Assembly (NCBI GenBank): GCA_947178085.1
Contig: CAMWWS010000049.1
Span: 1 to 11,640 of the forward strand
Direction: 5' to 3'
Source of the DNA: an uncultured Lachnospiraceae bacterium
GTDB lineage: Bacteria; Bacillota_A; Clostridia; Lachnospirales; Lachnospiraceae
Length of the DNA stretch: 11,640 nt
Below, piece after piece: positions 2,579 through 10,047 of the stretch (position 1 is the first letter of the stretch; every line of letters starts with the position of its first letter). The notes beneath the pieces were generated by a model. That model saw only the letters and a program-made list of their open reading frames with translations, ran no database searches and was not told the DNA's origin. The position numbers and the translations under genes are program-made.

Positions 2579-3688
2579 ATGGGAAAAAAGGTACTATTAT
2601 ATTGCAGCTCCTTAATAAAAGGCGGAACTGAGCGGGTAGTTGTAAATCTGGCAGAATTTTTGAATAGCCAGGGGATTGCAGTTACAATGGTTACGCAGCA
2701 TCAATTTGAAAATGAATATACACTTCCGGAAAGTATTCCCCGTATATTCAGTGAGATAACTGAAACAGAAAAGAAGAATGGAAGAATCGGAAATTTCTTC
2801 GCAAGATATAGGAAACTTCGCAGTATCTGGAAATCGCAAAGACCGGACTGTATTATTTCTTTTATCGGTAAAAATAATATTATGGCTGTGGGCGCGGCTC
2901 TCTTCACAGGGATTCCCGTGTTTGTGTCAGTTCGCGGCGAGCCAACGTGTGAATATTATTCTTTTGGACTGCGTTTTTTTGCAAAGACGCTATTTTATTT
3001 TGCATCGGGGGTTATTGTCCAGACGGAAGCGGCAAAGAATTTTTTTCCATCGTATATCCGCAAAAAAGCAATTATTCTGAAAAATCCACTAAATCCTTCT
3101 TTTATACGGACTCGTTTTGAAGGAAAAAGAGACGGAGGAATTGTTGCAGTAGGAAGGGTGGACAGCAATAAGAACCACGAAATGATTATTCGTGCATTTA
3201 GCAAAATTTCAGAAGAATTTCCATGTACTTCTCTTACTATCTATGGGGATGGAGAATGCAGGGAAAAATTGCAGAAACTGACAGAAAAGCTTGGGATTTC
3301 AGAACGGGTCAGCCTTCCCGGTCTGGTGACAGATGTTCCGGAAAAGATTTACCGCAGTAGTGTCTTCGTTCTTTCGTCTAACAGTGAAGGGATGCCAAAT
3401 GCTCTGCTGGAAGCCATGTGTCTTGGTATTCCTTGTATTTCCACTGATTGTCCATGCGGTGGTCCGGGGGAGCTGATTAAGGATGGAATAAACGGTTTTT
3501 TAATACCGGTAGGTGATGAGGAGGCGCTGGCTGACAGACTACGGACACTTTTGACGGATGAAGAGATGGCTGAGCGAATTGGGACGCAGGCGGCAAGGCT
3601 TTCAGAGATATACAATCCTGATTATGTCAATAACGAGTGGCTGGAATATTTGTTATCTGAAATGGGAGATAAATCATGTGTGGAATAG
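2579..3688 (+). CDS. GT4-family glycosyltransferase
   Basis: A complete 369-residue GT-B fold glycosyltransferase, of normal length for the family. The N-terminal domain opens with a beta strand and the glycine-rich KGGTERVV (14-21) typical of GT4 acceptor domains. The donor domain begins near VGRVDSNKNH (191-200) and carries the E-x7-E motif EGMPNALLE (Glu270 and Glu278) and TDCPCGGPGELI. No signal peptide is evident, so it should act on the cytoplasmic face of the membrane on a lipid-linked glycan. The start at 2579 has only a modest AAGG site (2568-2571) 7 bp upstream. It lies 44 bp after the first asnB-like gene, and its last 13 bp overlap the start of the second, so translational coupling to that gene is likely. 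Donor and acceptor are unknown. Confidence 0.94.
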   Translation: MGKKVLLYCSSLIKGGTERVVVNLAEFLNSQGIAVTMVTQHQFENEYTLPESIPRIFSEITETEKKNGRIGNFFARYRKLRSIWKSQRPDCIISFIGKNNIMAVGAALFTGIPVFVSVRGEPTCEYYSFGLRFFAKTLFYFASGVIVQTEAAKNFFPSYIRKKAIILKNPLNPSFIRTRFEGKRDGGIVAVGRVDSNKNHEMIIRAFSKISEEFPCTSLTIYGDGECREKLQKLTEKLGISERVSLPGLVTDVPEKIYRSSVFVLSSNSEGMPNALLEAMCLGIPCISTDCPCGGPGELIKDGINGFLIPVGDEEALADRLRTLLTDEEMAERIGTQAARLSEIYNPDYVNNEWLEYLLSEMGDKSCVE

Positions 3689-5574
3689 CGGGTATCTGCA
3701 ATTATGGAAACAAGCCAATTGAAAATATTAAGGCTATGAATAGCATGCTTATACGTAGAGGACCTGATGCAGGAAACTACTGGTTGAGTGAAAAAGACAG
3801 AGTAGTCTTTGGGCATAGAAGATTGTCAATTGTAGACTTGTCAGAGACAGGGGCACAGCCCATGCTCTCCGGCAGTGAGAGATATGTAATTGTATACAAT
3901 GGCGAAATATATAATATACCATATATAGAAGAAATGCTTAAGGATAAACTGAAATCACATGGAGAACAGCTCCACCTGCGTGGGACATCAGATACGGAAA
4001 TTTTATTAGAGGCTATAGAATGCTTTGGAATAAAGCAGACGCTTAAGCTTGTAAAAGGGATGTTTGCTTTTGCTGCATATGACAGGCAGGACAGGACTTT
4101 ATATCTTGCACGTGACAGAATGGGTGAGAAACCGCTGTATTATGGAAAAGTGGGAGACAGCTTTGTGTTCGCTTCGGATATTGCCGCTATTAAAGCGCTG
4201 GATGGCTTTCACAATGAGATAAATACAGATATATTGAATTTGTATTTTATGTATGGTTATATTCCGCAGCCATATTCTATCTACAAAGAGATATGGCAGC
4301 TAAAGCCCGGAGGAATTCTGGAGATTAAAGAACCTTTCACGGATTGGAGTAATGACAACTATTGGAATATATGCGAGGTTGCTAAGAATGGGCAGAAAAA
4401 TATGTTTGAAGGAACGGAGCAAGAGGCTGCGGACCGGTTGGAAAGCCTGCTCAGGGAATCCATAAGGGGACAGATGAGAGCGGATGTGCCGTTAGGCGCT
4501 TTTTTATCAGGCGGGATTGACAGTACGCTGGTTGTAAGTCTGATGCAGTCCATGAGTGATAAAAAAATACGCACTTTTACAGTAGGTTTCAATGAGGAAG
4601 GTTATAATGAAGCCAAATACGCTGGAGAAACGGCAAAGCATTTAGGAACAGAGCATACGGAGCTGTATGTGGAATTTAAGGATGTGATGGAAGTGCTTCC
4701 ATACATATCAGAAGCATATTCGGAGCCGTTTGCGGACAGCTCCCAGATTCCGACCATGTTGGTTAGCAAGCTTACAAAGGAGCATGTGACGGTTTCGCTA
4801 AGCGGCGATGCCGGAGATGAGTTGTTTTGCGGATATAATACTTATAAGGATATGGAACAGGGGCTGCGGATTGTAGAAGGAAAGGCGGATTTTCTGCCAC
4901 GAAGACTGCGAAAAGGGATAGGAAAAATCTGCGGTGTTCTTAGTAATGCTCATACGCCTCTGCTGTATAAGGTGTCGAATTGCTTTGAGATAGATTCGCC
5001 GGAGTCATTTTATCGTGCAATAGAAAAAACTGATTGCAGAATTCCTTATATTTCCAAAAACAGAACCATGCAATCATGCAGTAACAGTTTGTATACTGAC
5101 GGATTACTTGAGGATGGCAGACATAATCTGATGTTGATGGACATGCTGCAGTATCTGCCTGATGATATTCTTGTGAAAGTGGACAGGGCAGGTATGTTTT
5201 ATTCCCTAGAAAACAGAATCCCGTTACTCGACCGTGATGTAGTCGAATTTGCATGGACACTGCCTATTGAATATAAGTTTCAAGCGGGTGTAACCAAAAA
5301 ACCTTTGCGAAATATTCTGTACAAATACGTACCCCGGGAAATGATGGAGAGACCTAAGAAAGGATTCTCTATCCCAATAGACGAGTGGCTTGCCGCAGGT
5401 GAGATGCATGAATGGGCACAAAGCATTATGGCAGATGCAAGGAAAGCAGCAGGAGAAATTCTCAATCTGCATTATGTCGACAGCCTTTGGAAGGATTTTA
5501 TAGTAAACAAAAAGTGGAATCCTGTAATCTGGTATATACTGGTATTGGAGCAGTGGATGTTACAGAGATTTTGA
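3676..5574 (+). CDS. asnB: AsnB-type glutamine-dependent amidotransferase (asparagine synthase-like), copy 2
   Basis: A 632-residue paralogue of the protein at 654-2534 with the same two-domain plan. Cys2 (MCGIAGI) is the glutaminase nucleophile; RRLSIVDLS, YNGEIYN (74-80) and SDTEIL bind glutamine; the PP-loop SGGIDS (278-283) and SGDAGDE (376-382) form the ATP site. All appear intact, and the PP-loop is of the ordinary form. A GGGAG site (3664-3668) lies 7 bp before the ATG, inside the end of the preceding GT4 gene. The gene ends 15 bp inside the convergent gene on the other strand, leaving no room for a terminator. Sequence around the synthetase core is strongly shared with copy 1, but the regions between motifs differ. 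A role in amidating a carboxylated sugar, amino acid or lipid-linked intermediate of a surface glycan is inferred from neighbours; housekeeping asparagine synthesis cannot be excluded. Confidence 0.94.
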   Translation: MCGIAGICNYGNKPIENIKAMNSMLIRRGPDAGNYWLSEKDRVVFGHRRLSIVDLSETGAQPMLSGSERYVIVYNGEIYNIPYIEEMLKDKLKSHGEQLHLRGTSDTEILLEAIECFGIKQTLKLVKGMFAFAAYDRQDRTLYLARDRMGEKPLYYGKVGDSFVFASDIAAIKALDGFHNEINTDILNLYFMYGYIPQPYSIYKEIWQLKPGGILEIKEPFTDWSNDNYWNICEVAKNGQKNMFEGTEQEAADRLESLLRESIRGQMRADVPLGAFLSGGIDSTLVVSLMQSMSDKKIRTFTVGFNEEGYNEAKYAGETAKHLGTEHTELYVEFKDVMEVLPYISEAYSEPFADSSQIPTMLVSKLTKEHVTVSLSGDAGDELFCGYNTYKDMEQGLRIVEGKADFLPRRLRKGIGKICGVLSNAHTPLLYKVSNCFEIDSPESFYRAIEKTDCRIPYISKNRTMQSCSNSLYTDGLLEDGRHNLMLMDMLQYLPDDILVKVDRAGMFYSLENRIPLLDRDVVEFAWTLPIEYKFQAGVTKKPLRNILYKYVPREMMERPKKGFSIPIDEWLAAGEMHEWAQSIMADARKAAGEILNLHYVDSLWKDFIVNKKWNPVIWYILVLEQWMLQRF

Positions 5575-6486
5575 GTTGTCAATTTCTTCCTCCACAATAT
5601 ATTTGGGGCGTGATTTCACTTCTTCGAATATTTTGGAGATATAATATCCTATCATACCGACAGCCAACATAAGAATACTACCCGTAATTAGCTGCAAAAG
5701 GATTACTGTCGTAAATCCTTCAACGGAATTATTTTCGAAAAAACCTACTAAGGTTTGGACTGATAAAGCAATCGCAAAAATCAGATATATGATTCCGGCA
5801 AGAGTGACGAGCTGTAAAGGGGCGGAAGAGAAAGATGTAAGGTTATTTATTGCATATTTGATTAGTGAGAGTGCCGACCACTTTGAAACACCTTCTATCC
5901 GATCCTGTACATTATACTCTACACGAGTGGATTTAAATCCAACCCATGCAGATATAGCCCTGAAAAACATTTGTTTTTCAGGCATATTCAAGATAATGTC
6001 AACAACTTCCCTGTCGAGAAGTTTAAAATCGGATGTATTCTGCATATCAAAACCTGTAGCGCGGCTTATAATTCTGTAAAATGATTTGGCGAAAAATTTA
6101 TATAGAAAATTTTCATGCCCGCGGGAAAGTTTAATACCCTCGACAACTTTGTACCCTTGTTTCCAGAGTTCATACATCTCTATAATTTTTTCCGGGGGAT
6201 GTTGTAAATCGGCGTCAATTGTAACGCAGGCATCACCTTTGGCATATGCTAATCCGGCTATCATAGCGGATTCTTTGCCAAAATTTCTTGAAAAAGAGAT
6301 TGCTCTTATATGTTCATTATGTTTAGAAAGAGATTTAATCGTATCCCATGAGCAGTCTTTGGAACCGTCATTAACAAGCACTAATTCATATTCTATCTTC
6401 GAGGAATCCATGAGCTTTGTAATAACATCTATGCTGATTGAAATCATTTTTTCTTCGTTGTATACCGGTATGATAATTGATAACAT
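5560..6486 (-). CDS. GtrB/ArnC-like polyprenyl-phosphate glycosyltransferase (GT2, membrane anchored)
   Basis: A 308-residue GT2 enzyme of the dolichol-phosphate-mannose-synthase-like group. It would move a sugar from a nucleotide donor to undecaprenyl phosphate on the inner face of the membrane. In order: SIIIPVYNEE (3-12), VNDGSKD (38-44), SFSRNFGKESA (64-74), the metal- and donor-binding DADLQHPP (91-98), DFKLLDREVV (153-162), RIEGVSKWS (196-204), then two membrane helices at about 225-247 and 260-283 and a short basic-acidic tail. This is the usual length and topology of GtrB, CsbB and ArnC proteins. The start is supported by a GAGGG site (complement of 6494-6498) 7 bp upstream. It is divergent from the GtrA-fusion gene, matching the functional pairing of GtrB with GtrA. 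Which sugar is loaded (for example glucose, GlcNAc or Ara4N-like) cannot be read from sequence. Confidence 0.93.
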   Translation of the reverse strand: MLSIIIPVYNEEKMISISIDVITKLMDSSKIEYELVLVNDGSKDCSWDTIKSLSKHNEHIRAISFSRNFGKESAMIAGLAYAKGDACVTIDADLQHPPEKIIEMYELWKQGYKVVEGIKLSRGHENFLYKFFAKSFYRIISRATGFDMQNTSDFKLLDREVVDIILNMPEKQMFFRAISAWVGFKSTRVEYNVQDRIEGVSKWSALSLIKYAINNLTSFSSAPLQLVTLAGIIYLIFAIALSVQTLVGFFENNSVEGFTTVILLQLITGSILMLAVGMIGYYISKIFEEVKSRPKYIVEEEIDNSKSL

Positions 6487-6598: not shown

Positions 6599-6627
6599 AT
6601 GACTGATAATAGAGTTTATGATATACT
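6599..6627 (+). promoter_or_regulatory. Probable extended -10 promoter for the gtrA-acyltransferase gene
   Basis: ATGACT (6599-6604, 4 of 6 to TTGACA) is followed after 17 bp by TATACT (6622-6627, 5 of 6), and TG at 6619-6620 makes it an extended -10 (TGATATACT). Transcription would start near 6634, downstream of the alternative ATG at 6618, which supports translation from 6657. Confidence 0.5.
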
Positions 6628-6656
6628 ATATTGCTATAGAGGAAAGGATAATCATC

Positions 6657-8288
6657 ATGAAAGCAGCTTTTTGGCAGTTTATAAAATTCAGTATAGTAGG
6701 AATCTCAAATACACTGATAAATCAGGCAGTTTATTTCGTTATTATATATTTTGGCGGAAACTATATTTTTGCCAATACTATGGGATTTATTATCAGCGTG
6801 CTCAATGCATATTACTGGGGCAGTAAATATGTATTTAAAGAAGATGAAAATGCCGAGAAGCGAGTATGGTGGAAGGTTCTGTTAAAAACATACGCAGCAT
6901 ATTTCTGGGGATTTTTAGTAAACACTGCTCTGCTGATATTTTGGGTTGATATTGTAAAATTTTCACGATTTATGTATCCGTTGGAAGCAGTTTTCAAAAA
7001 TTGGGGCTGGGAAAAGGCAGATGCCAAAATGCTTGGAGAACTGGCGGCGTCTATATTGAATATGGCGGTTACCATTCCCATGAATTTCGTCATTAATAAG
7101 TATTGGGCATACAGTCAGAAAAAAAAGTCGGAAACACAATCAAACAATATTCCGGAAGGAAGACTGGCAAACATGGAGCTGCTGCGGATAGTTTCCATGA
7201 TGCTTGTTGTGGTATTGCATTTTTTGTGGAAAGGCGGATGCCTGGCACCTTTATCTCAGCGTGATATTCTGCCGTATGGATATCTTGCATGGGGACTTGA
7301 GGCGCTTTCCGTTGTGGCTGTGAATATCTATATGCTGCTTAGCGGATATTTTTTGATAGAAAGCCGGTTCAAGGTGAAGCGTTTGCTTACGCTTTTTTTG
7401 CAGCTTTGGTTTTACAGTATAGGTATAGGAATTGTGGCAGCAGTATTCGGATATATGCCGGAAGGCGGTTTTTCCATTTACTATCTGGTGCAGCTATGTC
7501 TGCCTGTTTCTGCGAATCATTATTGGTTTGTTACGGCATATGTATTCATGTATCTGTTTACGCAAGTATTATCACAGGGTATTAAAAAGCTTACGAAGAA
7601 GCAGTTTCAGATAGTATTATTCCTTATGATTTTTGTGTTTTCAGTGATTAAGTCTGTGACTCCGGTAAGACTGGCGGCGGATATGAACGGATATGACTGC
7701 ATATGGTATCTGTGCATATTTATGATTGCTGCTTACATCAGACTGTATGGCATTCCGTTTTTTAAAAATTGCGCACGTTCTTTTCTTATTTATTTAGTTT
7801 CTGCTGCATGCATTTTTGGATTTTCTTTTCTATTGAGACTTGTATTTATGAAGACAGGAAAACTGATGGATATGCTGGATATCTGCTATGATTATAATCA
7901 TATTCTTGTACTTATTGCTTCAGTCGCATTATTTTATACTTTTTGCCATATAGAGATAAAAAACAGATTAGTGAGCCGTGTTATATGCCGGATTGCTCCA
8001 TATACGCTGGGGGTTTATCTCTGGCATGAACATATAGCCATCAGATATGAATGGACAGGCTGGCTCTACGATATAACAGGAGTACCGGACAGCCTGGCTA
8101 ATTTGGTTCTGGATGTATTGTTTGCCGTGGCGGCAGTGTTTACAATTGGCATTCTTCTGGATATGCTGCGGAGTCTGCTGTTTAGTAAGCTGCATATGAT
8201 GCTTTTACACATAAATATCTACAGAAGCCTTAATGAATGGCTGGAAGGGCTTGCTATAGGTCAGAAAAAGGAAGAGATACATGAATAA
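6657..8288 (+). CDS. GtrA-like flippase domain fused to an acyltransferase-3 domain
   Basis: A 543-residue polytopic membrane protein with two recognisable halves. Residues 1-155 resemble GtrA (about four membrane helices; FIKFSIVGISNTLINQAVYF near the N terminus, NFVINKYWAY at 143-152), a family thought to flip undecaprenyl-phosphate-linked sugars. A short polar linker (about 153-170) leads into an acyltransferase-3 domain (about 173-515; ten or so helices): MELLRIVSMMLVVVLHF with Arg177 and His188, NIYMLLSGYF, NHYWF (287-291) and LWHEH (455-459). This family moves acyl groups, often acetyl, onto extracytoplasmic sugars. The start at 6657 is preferred to 6618 because AGGAAAGG (6640-6647) lies 9 bp before it and because of the promoter position. 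The two domains are normally separate proteins. No frameshift or stop separates them. The next gene overlaps its 3' end by 8 bp. The acyl group and target are unknown. Confidence 0.9.
   Translation: MKAAFWQFIKFSIVGISNTLINQAVYFVIIYFGGNYIFANTMGFIISVLNAYYWGSKYVFKEDENAEKRVWWKVLLKTYAAYFWGFLVNTALLIFWVDIVKFSRFMYPLEAVFKNWGWEKADAKMLGELAASILNMAVTIPMNFVINKYWAYSQKKKSETQSNNIPEGRLANMELLRIVSMMLVVVLHFLWKGGCLAPLSQRDILPYGYLAWGLEALSVVAVNIYMLLSGYFLIESRFKVKRLLTLFLQLWFYSIGIGIVAAVFGYMPEGGFSIYYLVQLCLPVSANHYWFVTAYVFMYLFTQVLSQGIKKLTKKQFQIVLFLMIFVFSVIKSVTPVRLAADMNGYDCIWYLCIFMIAAYIRLYGIPFFKNCARSFLIYLVSAACIFGFSFLLRLVFMKTGKLMDMLDICYDYNHILVLIASVALFYTFCHIEIKNRLVSRVICRIAPYTLGVYLWHEHIAIRYEWTGWLYDITGVPDSLANLVLDVLFAVAAVFTIGILLDMLRSLLFSKLHMMLLHINIYRSLNEWLEGLAIGQKKEEIHE
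7154..7175 (+). promoter_or_regulatory. Possible internal ribosome binding site before the acyltransferase domain
   Basis: GGAAGGAAG (7154-7162) lies 10 bp before an in-frame ATG (7173-7175, Met173), exactly where the acyltransferase-3 domain begins. It could allow a free acyltransferase to be made besides the fusion. Purine-rich codons could also produce this by chance. Confidence 0.3.
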
Positions 8289-10047
8289 GTTGAAGGATTC
8301 TAAAATTTACAGAATATGCTTCTGCTATATATTTCCTATTATTCTTATACTGTATCCGCTGCGCCATATTAACATGGGACTGGACTTGGCGGACACGGGA
8401 TATAATTATGCCAATTTCAGATATGGGTTTGAACACATGGATTCCAAATGGTTTTTTTCAACATATCTGTCAAATGCAGCAGGGCATTTTCTTACGTGTC
8501 TTCCGGGAGGGAATACTCTTCTTTTTATGAATTTGTATACAGGTCTTTTTACGAGTCTGATGGCGTTTGTTTCTTACAGATTCTTGACAAAGAGGATGGA
8601 AATTCCAGCGATTTGGGTTTTTATCGGGGAACTTACGGTAATAAGTCTGTGCTGGTGCCCTACGGCGCTTTTGTATAATTACATAACATATACACTGCTG
8701 CTTGTGGGTGTGCTGCTTATCTATGAGGGGCTTACGCAAGAGAAAGATGTATATTTGATAATTGCGGGAGCGGCTCTTGGAACTAATATATTTGTCCGGT
8801 TTTCCAATCTGCCGGAAGCTGGTTTAATTGTTGCAGTGTGGGCATATGGCCTCATCTGCCGGAAGAATATAAAGAAAGTAGTGCGGGAGACCGGATTCTG
8901 TATGCTGGGATATATTGGAGCTGTTATTATATGGCTCGGATATATATCGATGCATTATGGGTTTGCAAATTATGTGGAAGGTATAAGAAGTCTGTTTGCC
9001 ATGACGGAAACGGCGACTGATTATAAAGCATCTTCCATGTTGTCCGGGATGTTTAGTGATTATAAAGAGAGTTTGTACTGGCTGAGCAGGATTATGGTCT
9101 TTCTGATACCCGGTATGGCAGTATGTATTGTTATGCCGAAGTGCCGGAAATGGATAAAAAGATCTATATGTGTATTTTTTTCAGTCGCTGCGCTGGTTTG
9201 GCTCTATAGAAATGAATTTTGTAAGTTCGAGTTTTATTCCGATGGTGATATATATAGATCGGGCGTATTATTTTTAATTCTGACCATGTTTGTGTGCCTG
9301 ATGCGTATTTTGTCTCCTAAAGTGCAGAAAAATGAAAAGCTGCTCGCAGGAATGATTATATTGGTATCGCTTATTTCTGCAATTGGAAGTAACAACAGAC
9401 TGCTTACAAGCATTAACAACCTGTTTCTGGCAGTGCCTTATGTGCTGTGGATAATGTACGGATTCTGTAGGAAGTCGGATATCAGATGGTTCGCCGCAAA
9501 AACTATGGCGGTGATGTTTTTGGCGCTTTTCCTTGTTCAGAGCGCTGCATTTGGTGTGAGGTTTGTTTTTGCGGAATCGGGAAGAGATATCTCTATGGAC
9601 GCAAAAGTAGAAAACTGCGATGTGATAAAGGGAATTTCCATGAGCAGGGAGAAAGCTGACCGGATGGAAGAAATTGCTCAATATGTCATAGACAGACAGC
9701 TAATCGGAAGAGATGTTATTCTGTATGGAGATATTCCGGCTCTGAGTTTTTACCTTGAAATGCCACCTGCTTTTATGGCATGGATTGATTTGGATTCTTA
9801 CAATGTGGATTCTTTGGAGACGGAAATTGATAAGCTTAAGGTTGGGACATCAGAAGGTAAGGAACTTCCGATTGTGATTTTAAACCACAGCCTGATTGAG
9901 GATATGGGAGCGAATTCTGCGGAAGATATAAAACTTACATTGATTATTGATTACATGGAAGAATGTGGATATAAGAAAACTTTTTCTAATGAAATGTTCA
10001 TTTTATATGATACGGACGAGGTGAGTATGTCAGATTATGAAGGTTAG
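8281..10047 (+). CDS. Polytopic membrane protein, probable GT-C-type glycosyltransferase
   Basis: A 588-residue protein with about 12-13 predicted membrane helices (roughly 12-28, 78-98, 111-127, 134-150, 158-194 as two, 206-224, 267-287, 294-310, 326-343, 354-370, 378-394, 405-423) and a soluble C-terminal domain from about 430 to 588. The first large loop after helix 1 holds GLDLADTGYN (Asp35 and Asp38), the acidic first-loop pattern expected of GT-C enzymes that use polyprenyl-phosphate sugars outside the membrane. The C-terminal part has VILYGDIPALSFYL and predicted alpha/beta structure. The family is not one I can name; the function is inferred from topology, the acidic motif and its position beside GtrB- and GtrA-like genes, where it fits the role of the specific transferase (GtrC-like, or YfhO-like in Gram-positives). 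AAGGA at 8268-8272 lies 8 bp before the ATG, and an 8-bp overlap with the preceding gene suggests coupling. An O-antigen ligase or polymerase is the alternative. Confidence 0.75.
   Translation: MNKLKDSKIYRICFCYIFPIILILYPLRHINMGLDLADTGYNYANFRYGFEHMDSKWFFSTYLSNAAGHFLTCLPGGNTLLFMNLYTGLFTSLMAFVSYRFLTKRMEIPAIWVFIGELTVISLCWCPTALLYNYITYTLLLVGVLLIYEGLTQEKDVYLIIAGAALGTNIFVRFSNLPEAGLIVAVWAYGLICRKNIKKVVRETGFCMLGYIGAVIIWLGYISMHYGFANYVEGIRSLFAMTETATDYKASSMLSGMFSDYKESLYWLSRIMVFLIPGMAVCIVMPKCRKWIKRSICVFFSVAALVWLYRNEFCKFEFYSDGDIYRSGVLFLILTMFVCLMRILSPKVQKNEKLLAGMIILVSLISAIGSNNRLLTSINNLFLAVPYVLWIMYGFCRKSDIRWFAAKTMAVMFLALFLVQSAAFGVRFVFAESGRDISMDAKVENCDVIKGISMSREKADRMEEIAQYVIDRQLIGRDVILYGDIPALSFYLEMPPAFMAWIDLDSYNVDSLETEIDKLKVGTSEGKELPIVILNHSLIEDMGANSAEDIKLTLIIDYMEECGYKKTFSNEMFILYDTDEVSMSDYEG

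Follow-up and report, generated by a model that had tools for sequence, protein, structure and literature searches.

A rare fusion of GtrA and acyltransferase-3 domains in Lachnospiraceae and the conserved gtrA-AT3-GT-C gene order of its relatives

One uninterrupted open frame in the window, that is, in the whole stretch of 11,640 nucleotides analysed here, joins a GtrA domain to an acyltransferase-3 (AT3) domain (6657..8288, forward strand; 543 aa). The fusion is real and no artefact, but rare, and it puts known parts together in a new way; the conserved gtrA-AT3-GT-C cassette of its relatives, in which several kinds of fusion occur, is a stronger result than the fusion alone. Throughout, L denotes loci fetched from genome collections, G genomes and P proteins, and "the genus" is the one to which G001, the genome containing L001, belongs.

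Results

Architecture of the fused gene

Pfam recognizes both families in the one chain, as had been proposed for a check. PF01757 (AT3) covers residues 171-501 (7167..8159, forward strand; E 1.2e-22, 80.8 bits against a gathering cut-off of 31) and PF04138 (GtrA) residues 10-104 (E 4e-16, 59.7 bits against 26.1); with both scores above the cut-offs, misassignment of either domain is ruled out. The GtrA match spans positions 1-93 of the 117 in the profile and ends before the fourth GtrA helix. Since this helix (about 123-152) is present in the AlphaFold2 model and aligns with stand-alone GtrA proteins, the extent of residues 1-155 given in the initial annotation (6657..7121, forward strand) is right in substance, and the four predicted helices agree with a small GtrA protein of three to four. 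The open frame, the Pfam matches and the modelled fourth helix thus confirm a GtrA domain and an AT3 domain in a single frame. Between them lies a linker (residues 156-168; 7122..7160, forward strand) that varies in length among the fused proteins by whole codons and falls largely in a segment with pLDDT below 50 (153-167, AlphaFold2). An SGNH domain was not found in the fused protein by Pfam, and a sequence search of solved structures returned DPMS as its sole match.

ATG 6657 is a better start than ATG 6618, which would add 13 aa to the protein, because the putative ribosome-binding site AGGAAAGG (6640..6647, forward strand) ends 9 nt 5' of it and L001, L002 and L005 all have GGAAAGG ahead of this start. 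An extended -10 promoter-like site 5' of the gene (6599..6627, forward strand) comes from a consensus scan that gave 20 sites in the region against 17.9 expected by chance; the sequence around it is similar in the same three loci. At the beginning of the AT3 domain (7154-7175), the purine-rich stretch GGAAGGAAGA precedes ATG 7173, a possible internal start from which the AT3 domain alone could be made; in L002 it does not occupy the corresponding position.

The AT3 domain retains the motif of TMH1: R177 and H188 (R-x10-H; 7185..7220, forward strand) are invariant in 21 aligned proteins. The pattern was matched by 119 of the 121 proteins listed (118/121 and 117/121 with alternative patterns), the misses being P0107, which has the motif by eye, and P0033, which is N-terminally short. 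Among the loci, four of which repeat others, 99 of 102 matched; L046 and L051 have the motif by eye and L070 has Lys. In the RxxR motif of TMH3, R242 is invariant (21/21 rows) and the second position, aligned by eye, is Thr245 in the window. Comparison of the window with L001 and L002 gave dN/dS values of 0.07 and 0.09 for the GtrA domain and 0.17 and 0.15 for AT3, the pair with L002 being near saturation (dS >1); unfused AT3 copy pairs gave 0.15 and 0.19, and fused-unfused pairs 0.12-0.22. Judged by these ratios, both domains are under purifying selection. A degenerate AT3 is ruled out by motif retention together with the dN/dS constraint.

Frequency of the fusion

Of the best 120 of 472 homologues, 14 carry both Pfam domains end to end (67-89% identity), a lower bound for the whole set, and the remaining 106 have AT3 and no GtrA. 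As the initial annotation had it, the two are usually separate proteins. Among the best 80 of 157 loci the fusion occurs in two, L001 (87% identity) and L002 (72%). By genome it was found in 2 of 77 in the genus and in 1 of 397 in a family-wide sample (G001, already among the genus two). The fused proteins P0003 and P0010 are present in NCBI, named merely 'acyltransferase family protein'. A phage-borne origin was considered and rejected: five viral_contigs stretches matched a pattern, and a relative is encoded in none of them. As had been supposed, no description of a protein combining GtrA and AT3 was found in the open-access literature, a scope outside which most subscription journals lie.

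Neighboring genes in the window

The GT-C partner that had been postulated was found directly 3' of the fusion gene. A gene at 8281..10047 (forward strand), overlapping the 3' end of the fusion gene by 8 nt, encodes a putative membrane glycosyltransferase of 588 aa that matches no Pfam family. Its AlphaFold2 model (pLDDT 89.5, pTM 0.89) was matched by Foldseek to STT3 (2.3e-5, the best E-value), ArnT (2.1e-4) and PglB (2.3e-4), with Emb also among the matches, and D38 is invariant in 49 of 49 rows. By its modelled structure, the product has a GT-C fold.

Upstream and divergently oriented on the reverse strand, 5560..6486 encodes a protein resembling the polyprenyl-phosphate sugar synthases GtrB and PgfS (GT2; PF00535), which scores 262 bits with the NCBIfam PgfS model, below its cut-off of 500. 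This neighbor is kept in L001 and not in G002; the best match in G002-G004 is at just 38% and located elsewhere. A GtrB-like protein, GtrA and GT-C are encoded together in the window and L001, the GtrB-like gene not being adjacent in G002. Beyond it, Pfam identified a gene for a GT4-type glycosyltransferase and two for asparagine-synthase-like proteins, a content seen in polysaccharide clusters. The asparagine-synthase-like genes (636-2534 and 3676-5574) flank the GT4 gene, and the pair perhaps amidates a uronic acid of the glycan.

Gene order in relatives

In the genus, gtrA lies directly upstream of AT3 in 70 of the 74 AT3-bearing genomes (77 searched), where "directly upstream" requires that the two genes share contig and strand and that 900-2000 nt separate their 3' ends. 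From those listed by a PF04138 search, 87 GtrA places were set against all 76 AT3 places; the 70 comprise 69 AT3 places in 69 genomes, assigned by coordinates, and G059, whose contig ends inside the gtrA directly upstream. The four exceptions, G001-G004, are the closest kin of the window, two with the fusion and two with an unfused AT3 only. The order gtrA, AT3, GT-C is constant in 18 of 18 operon loci examined (L085-L102), in one of which AT3 and GT-C form a single frame.

Of the 80 closest AT3 loci (the best 80 of 157), 72 have the GT-C gene at most 300 nt downstream of AT3; of the other eight, three are at a contig edge, three have GT-C 308-1124 nt away, and in two none was found. Family-wide, the GT-C partner is present in 33 of 299 sampled genomes and has AT3 beside it in 26 of the 30 loci fetched; five of these, besides the fused G001, show GtrA directly upstream of AT3 within their short flanks. 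In the closer AT3 loci (L006-L080), GtrA directly upstream was not found with two GtrA models and a Pfam scan of 46 of the 68 candidate genes there. Among the 25 of 84 families listed, the scan identified GT2 (9), ABC transporters (5), GNAT (2) and GDSL lipase (2) upstream of AT3, so that a lone GtrA could hide among the remaining families.

Twelve larger stretches have a usual order of GT52-like, ABC transporter, gtrA, AT3, GT-C, DegT aminotransferase, unknown membrane protein, GNAT acetyltransferase, GtrB-like GT2 and DUF6020 membrane protein, assigned by Pfam on one locus and one gene of another and by eye in the rest. Pfam also identified cytidylyltransferase genes in the operon stretches L101, L123, L125, L126 and L127, and NeuB in L126, genes as for nonulosonic acids; in L109, NeuB lies near a relocated operon-type gtrA. 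In G074 and G075, as also in L101 (6673-8328) and L102, gtrA and AT3 are in the same frame with one TAG stop and about 7 codons between them, which in the two loci is one step from fusion. The rows of G029, G030, G074 and G075 that span GtrA and AT3 contain internal stops and were rejected as fusions, being two genes read through.

AT3 is joined to other partners as well. It forms one open frame with GT-C in P0115 (950 aa), L128 (6382-9309; 975 aa) and L162 (442-3285; 947 aa), which share 35-38% mutual identity. A GNAT domain is N-terminal to AT3 in P0117 and P0120 (by their sequences, that of P0120 scanned with Pfam), and P0119 and P0121 are listed with GNAT and AT3 domains. AT3 fusions named in the texts consulted are those to SGNH, to alanine racemase and, in eukaryotes, to an N-terminal NRF domain (PMC7448272, PMC9558356, PMC9833829).

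Two types of GtrA

The fused GtrA shares 23% identity with the operon-type GtrA of L125. Elsewhere in their genomes, next to a gene for an ABC transporter, G001-G004 carry a GtrA 66-68% identical to that of L125. The best 120 of 423 stand-alone proteins related to the fused GtrA are 45-81% identical to it. Two GtrA genes of the fused type were found in the genus, in L103 directly after a GT2 gene and in L104 about 0.7 kb after one, and a GtrA of the fused type was not found in G003 and G004, both MAGs. A narrow model of the fused GtrA detected none outside the fused loci, a misleading result compared with PF04138 and a broader model, which revealed the upstream gtrA; the GtrA subfamily model used on the genus genomes and loci was built with fused sequences included. 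As the operon and fused GtrA are of different types, these sequence comparisons suggest at least two separate unions of gtrA with AT3, one as neighbors and one as a fusion. Such repeated joining is the strongest argument for a functional link.

GtrA proteins are predicted C55-P-sugar flippases, and R95 and N132 of Listeria GtcA are essential (PMC7389260; for the prediction also PMC8035078). With columns set by motif spacing and GtcA itself left unaligned, a counterpart of R95 is present in 0/15 fused proteins and 0/30 sampled stand-alone relatives (of 120), as against 26/34 other GtrA rows. The equivalent of N132, N143 in the window, is kept in 15/15 fused proteins and in the 30 sampled stand-alone relatives. 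The fused GtrA thus has one of the two residues of a GtcA-like flippase, and its flippase activity is one that we infer.

Loss and probable transfer of the GtrA domain

In an AT3 tree of 65 chosen rows, from which P0033, P0095 and P0107 were left out, 14 of the 15 fused proteins group in a single clade (support 100/99), together with ten unfused rows, of which eight are different. P0014, the remaining fused protein, stands elsewhere, beside the unfused P0070 (100/99). The tree requires at least eight changes between fused and unfused states, a count that carries no direction. Relative to the window, the GtrA domain of P0014 is 86.5% identical and its AT3 62%, and in a GtrA tree built by a quick method P0014 lies inside the fused set, which consists of the 15 fused proteins and one stand-alone, P0122 (SH-aLRT 96). 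The GtrA half therefore appears to have moved onto another AT3.

In L005 (3049-3150), the DNA leading up to the fusion and its initial codons are still present, 88% identical to L002. A gap of 471 bp (157 codons) follows, after which AT3 continues in frame. On this alignment L005 is a natural in-frame deletion of the GtrA domain, and GtrA has been lost at least once while AT3 stays constrained. In L003 and L004 the DNA between the window's first asparagine-synthase gene and the linker is absent, which on this comparison alone may reflect loss or never having been gained. One Butyrivibrio-labelled MAG (contigs L004, L005 and L012) has three AT3 copies of this subfamily, all unfused.

Discussion

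A proposed fused variant of a glycan-modifying cassette

On balance, we lean towards the protein being a fused variant of a conserved Lachnospiraceae cassette, gtrA-AT3-GT-C, that glycosylates and acylates an extracytoplasmic glycan. The observed part of this reading comprises the fused gene and its conservation, the operon of separate genes in relatives and, by model, the GT-C fold; the rest comes from knowledge of the families. Following that knowledge, a GtrB-like enzyme would load undecaprenyl phosphate with a sugar, the GtrA domain would carry the undecaprenyl-phosphate sugar outward, the AT3 domain would move an acyl group, probably acetyl from acetyl-CoA, across the membrane and attach it to a sugar belonging to this glycan, and the GT-C enzyme would transfer the flipped sugar. 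The acyl acceptor may be either the lipid-linked donor or the finished glycan. The fusion would mainly hold flippase and acyltransferase together, with the chain passing between them on the cytoplasmic side. The N-terminus of the AT3 protein Oac is reported to be cytoplasmic (PMC9833829); together with a four-helix GtrA that, starting there, would also end there, this suggests that the linker joins both domains on the same side.

In favor of the cassette are the domain scores above cut-off, purifying selection, the retained R-x10-H and the GT-C fold, as well as the 70/74 gtrA adjacency, the GT-C neighbors, the AT3-GT-C and GNAT-AT3 fusions and a fused GtrA that is not of the operon type. Against it stand the eight or more changes between fused and unfused, the loss of GtrA in L005, the constraint on unfused AT3 pairs (dN/dS 0.15 and 0.19), the lack of a detected fused-type GtrA in G003 and G004 and of a GtrB-like neighbor in G002, the missing R95 counterpart, the absence of a detected upstream GtrA in L006-L080, and a Salmonella AT3 that needs neither GtrA nor GtrB. 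The neighboring position of gtrA and AT3 in related genomes hints that flipping and acylation work together, and the 70/74 adjacency and the 18/18 loci with GT-C support, without recourse to the fusion, a functional link of GtrA, AT3 and GT-C. Of the coupling of flipping and acylation that the initial annotation read from the fusion, this link is supported, whereas the loss of GtrA and the Salmonella precedent argue against obligatory coupling.

The initial annotation also had the sugar acylated as it emerges, before its transfer by the GT-C partner. That order is unsupported, as the data do not separate acylation of the donor from acylation of the finished glycan, and we think it unlikely that AT3 acylates the polyprenyl-phosphate sugar as GtrA releases it outside and then hands it to GT-C. 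If such a flip-acylate-transfer machine were true, only acylated sugar would reach the glycan, and the two kinds of fusion, GtrA-AT3 and AT3-GT-C, would each show the same complex in covalently joined form. A looser arrangement, possible though somewhat on the doubtful side, would have GtrA and AT3 act separately within the same glycan pathway, the fusion merely co-expressing them, with AT3 acylating the finished glycan. It agrees with the continued constraint on AT3 after GtrA was lost, with the flexible, low-confidence linker (AlphaFold2), with the GtrA part being transplantable, as in P0014, where a fused-clade GtrA (86.5%) sits on a different AT3 (62%), and with Salmonella F2GtrC, which is described as working without GtrA and GtrB (PMC4413052); the 70/74 adjacency and the several kinds of AT3 fusion, however, argue for more than chance co-expression.

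We give still less credence to the idea that the divergent GtrA domain no longer flips and serves GT-C or GtrB as a scaffold or binding module, with flipping left to another GtrA of the genome. While the R95 counterpart is lacking in all 15 fused proteins and all 30 sampled stand-alone relatives (30 of 120), and an operon-type GtrA is retained elsewhere in G001 and G002 as well, the equivalent of the essential N132 is kept in all of these proteins, the domain is strongly constrained (dN/dS 0.07-0.09), and the stand-alone relatives in L103 and L104 are located after GT2 genes, as flippase genes are. A single GtrA is reported to be able to serve several glycosylation systems (PMC8035078), which would allow another GtrA to do the flipping and also means that another GtrA may make up for loss of the fused copy. 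Finally, that two genes were joined by a missed stop in annotation or assembly is hardly credible. Separate genes are the rule in the genus, and in G074 and G075 a single TAG stop parts gtrA from AT3 in the same frame, but the same open fusion recurs in L001, L002 and 14 of the 120 homologues listed; these independent contigs and homologues rule out artefactual joining, and with it, given also linkers that differ by whole codons, the missed stop near 7120-7170 against which the initial annotation had cautioned.

How AT3 proteins without SGNH reach and choose their acceptor is described as an open question (PMC7448272, PMC9558356). For the fused cassette variant that we favor, the fusion, the conserved gene order, the AT3-GT-C fusions and the GtrA-deleted allele make one answer testable, namely an acceptor that is either the lipid-linked sugar or the glycan built by the GT-C partner. 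As this partner occurs in 33 of 299 sampled family genomes, the answer would reach well beyond a single gene.

Comparison with known systems

The locus resembles the three-component systems (GtrA/GtrB/GT-C; GtlA-GtcA-GtlB of Listeria and CsbB-GtcA-YfhO of B. subtilis) in encoding a GtrB-like GT2, GtrA and a protein with a predicted GT-C fold. It differs from them in that GtrA is fused to AT3 and that AT3 is a regular neighbor of the GT-C gene; a GtrA-AT3 fusion was not found in the available parts of two papers on these systems (PMC8035078, PMC11127046). The gsf cluster of Actinoplanes missouriensis, a polysaccharide cluster, likewise brings together GtrA, GT2 and AT3 (PMC13390465), but as separate genes and in another phylum, and the fusion goes unmentioned in the part of that paper available.

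The Salmonella family 2 gtr operon (F2GtrC = OafB) is similar in having an AT3 gene in an operon with gtrA. There, gtrB is reported as truncated or deleted and gtrA as shortened in BTP1, neither being required (PMC4413052), and the AT3 works without GtrA or GtrB (PMC4413052, PMC7448272). In contrast, GtrA is here intact, constrained and fused, and Pfam shows no SGNH domain such as the family 2 AT3 protein has. The AT3-SGNH acyltransferases (OafA, OafB, OatA and PglI) also join an AT3 with R-x10-H to a second domain; their partner is a C-terminal extracytoplasmic SGNH, whereas in the fusion described here a membrane domain from a flippase family stands at the N-terminus.
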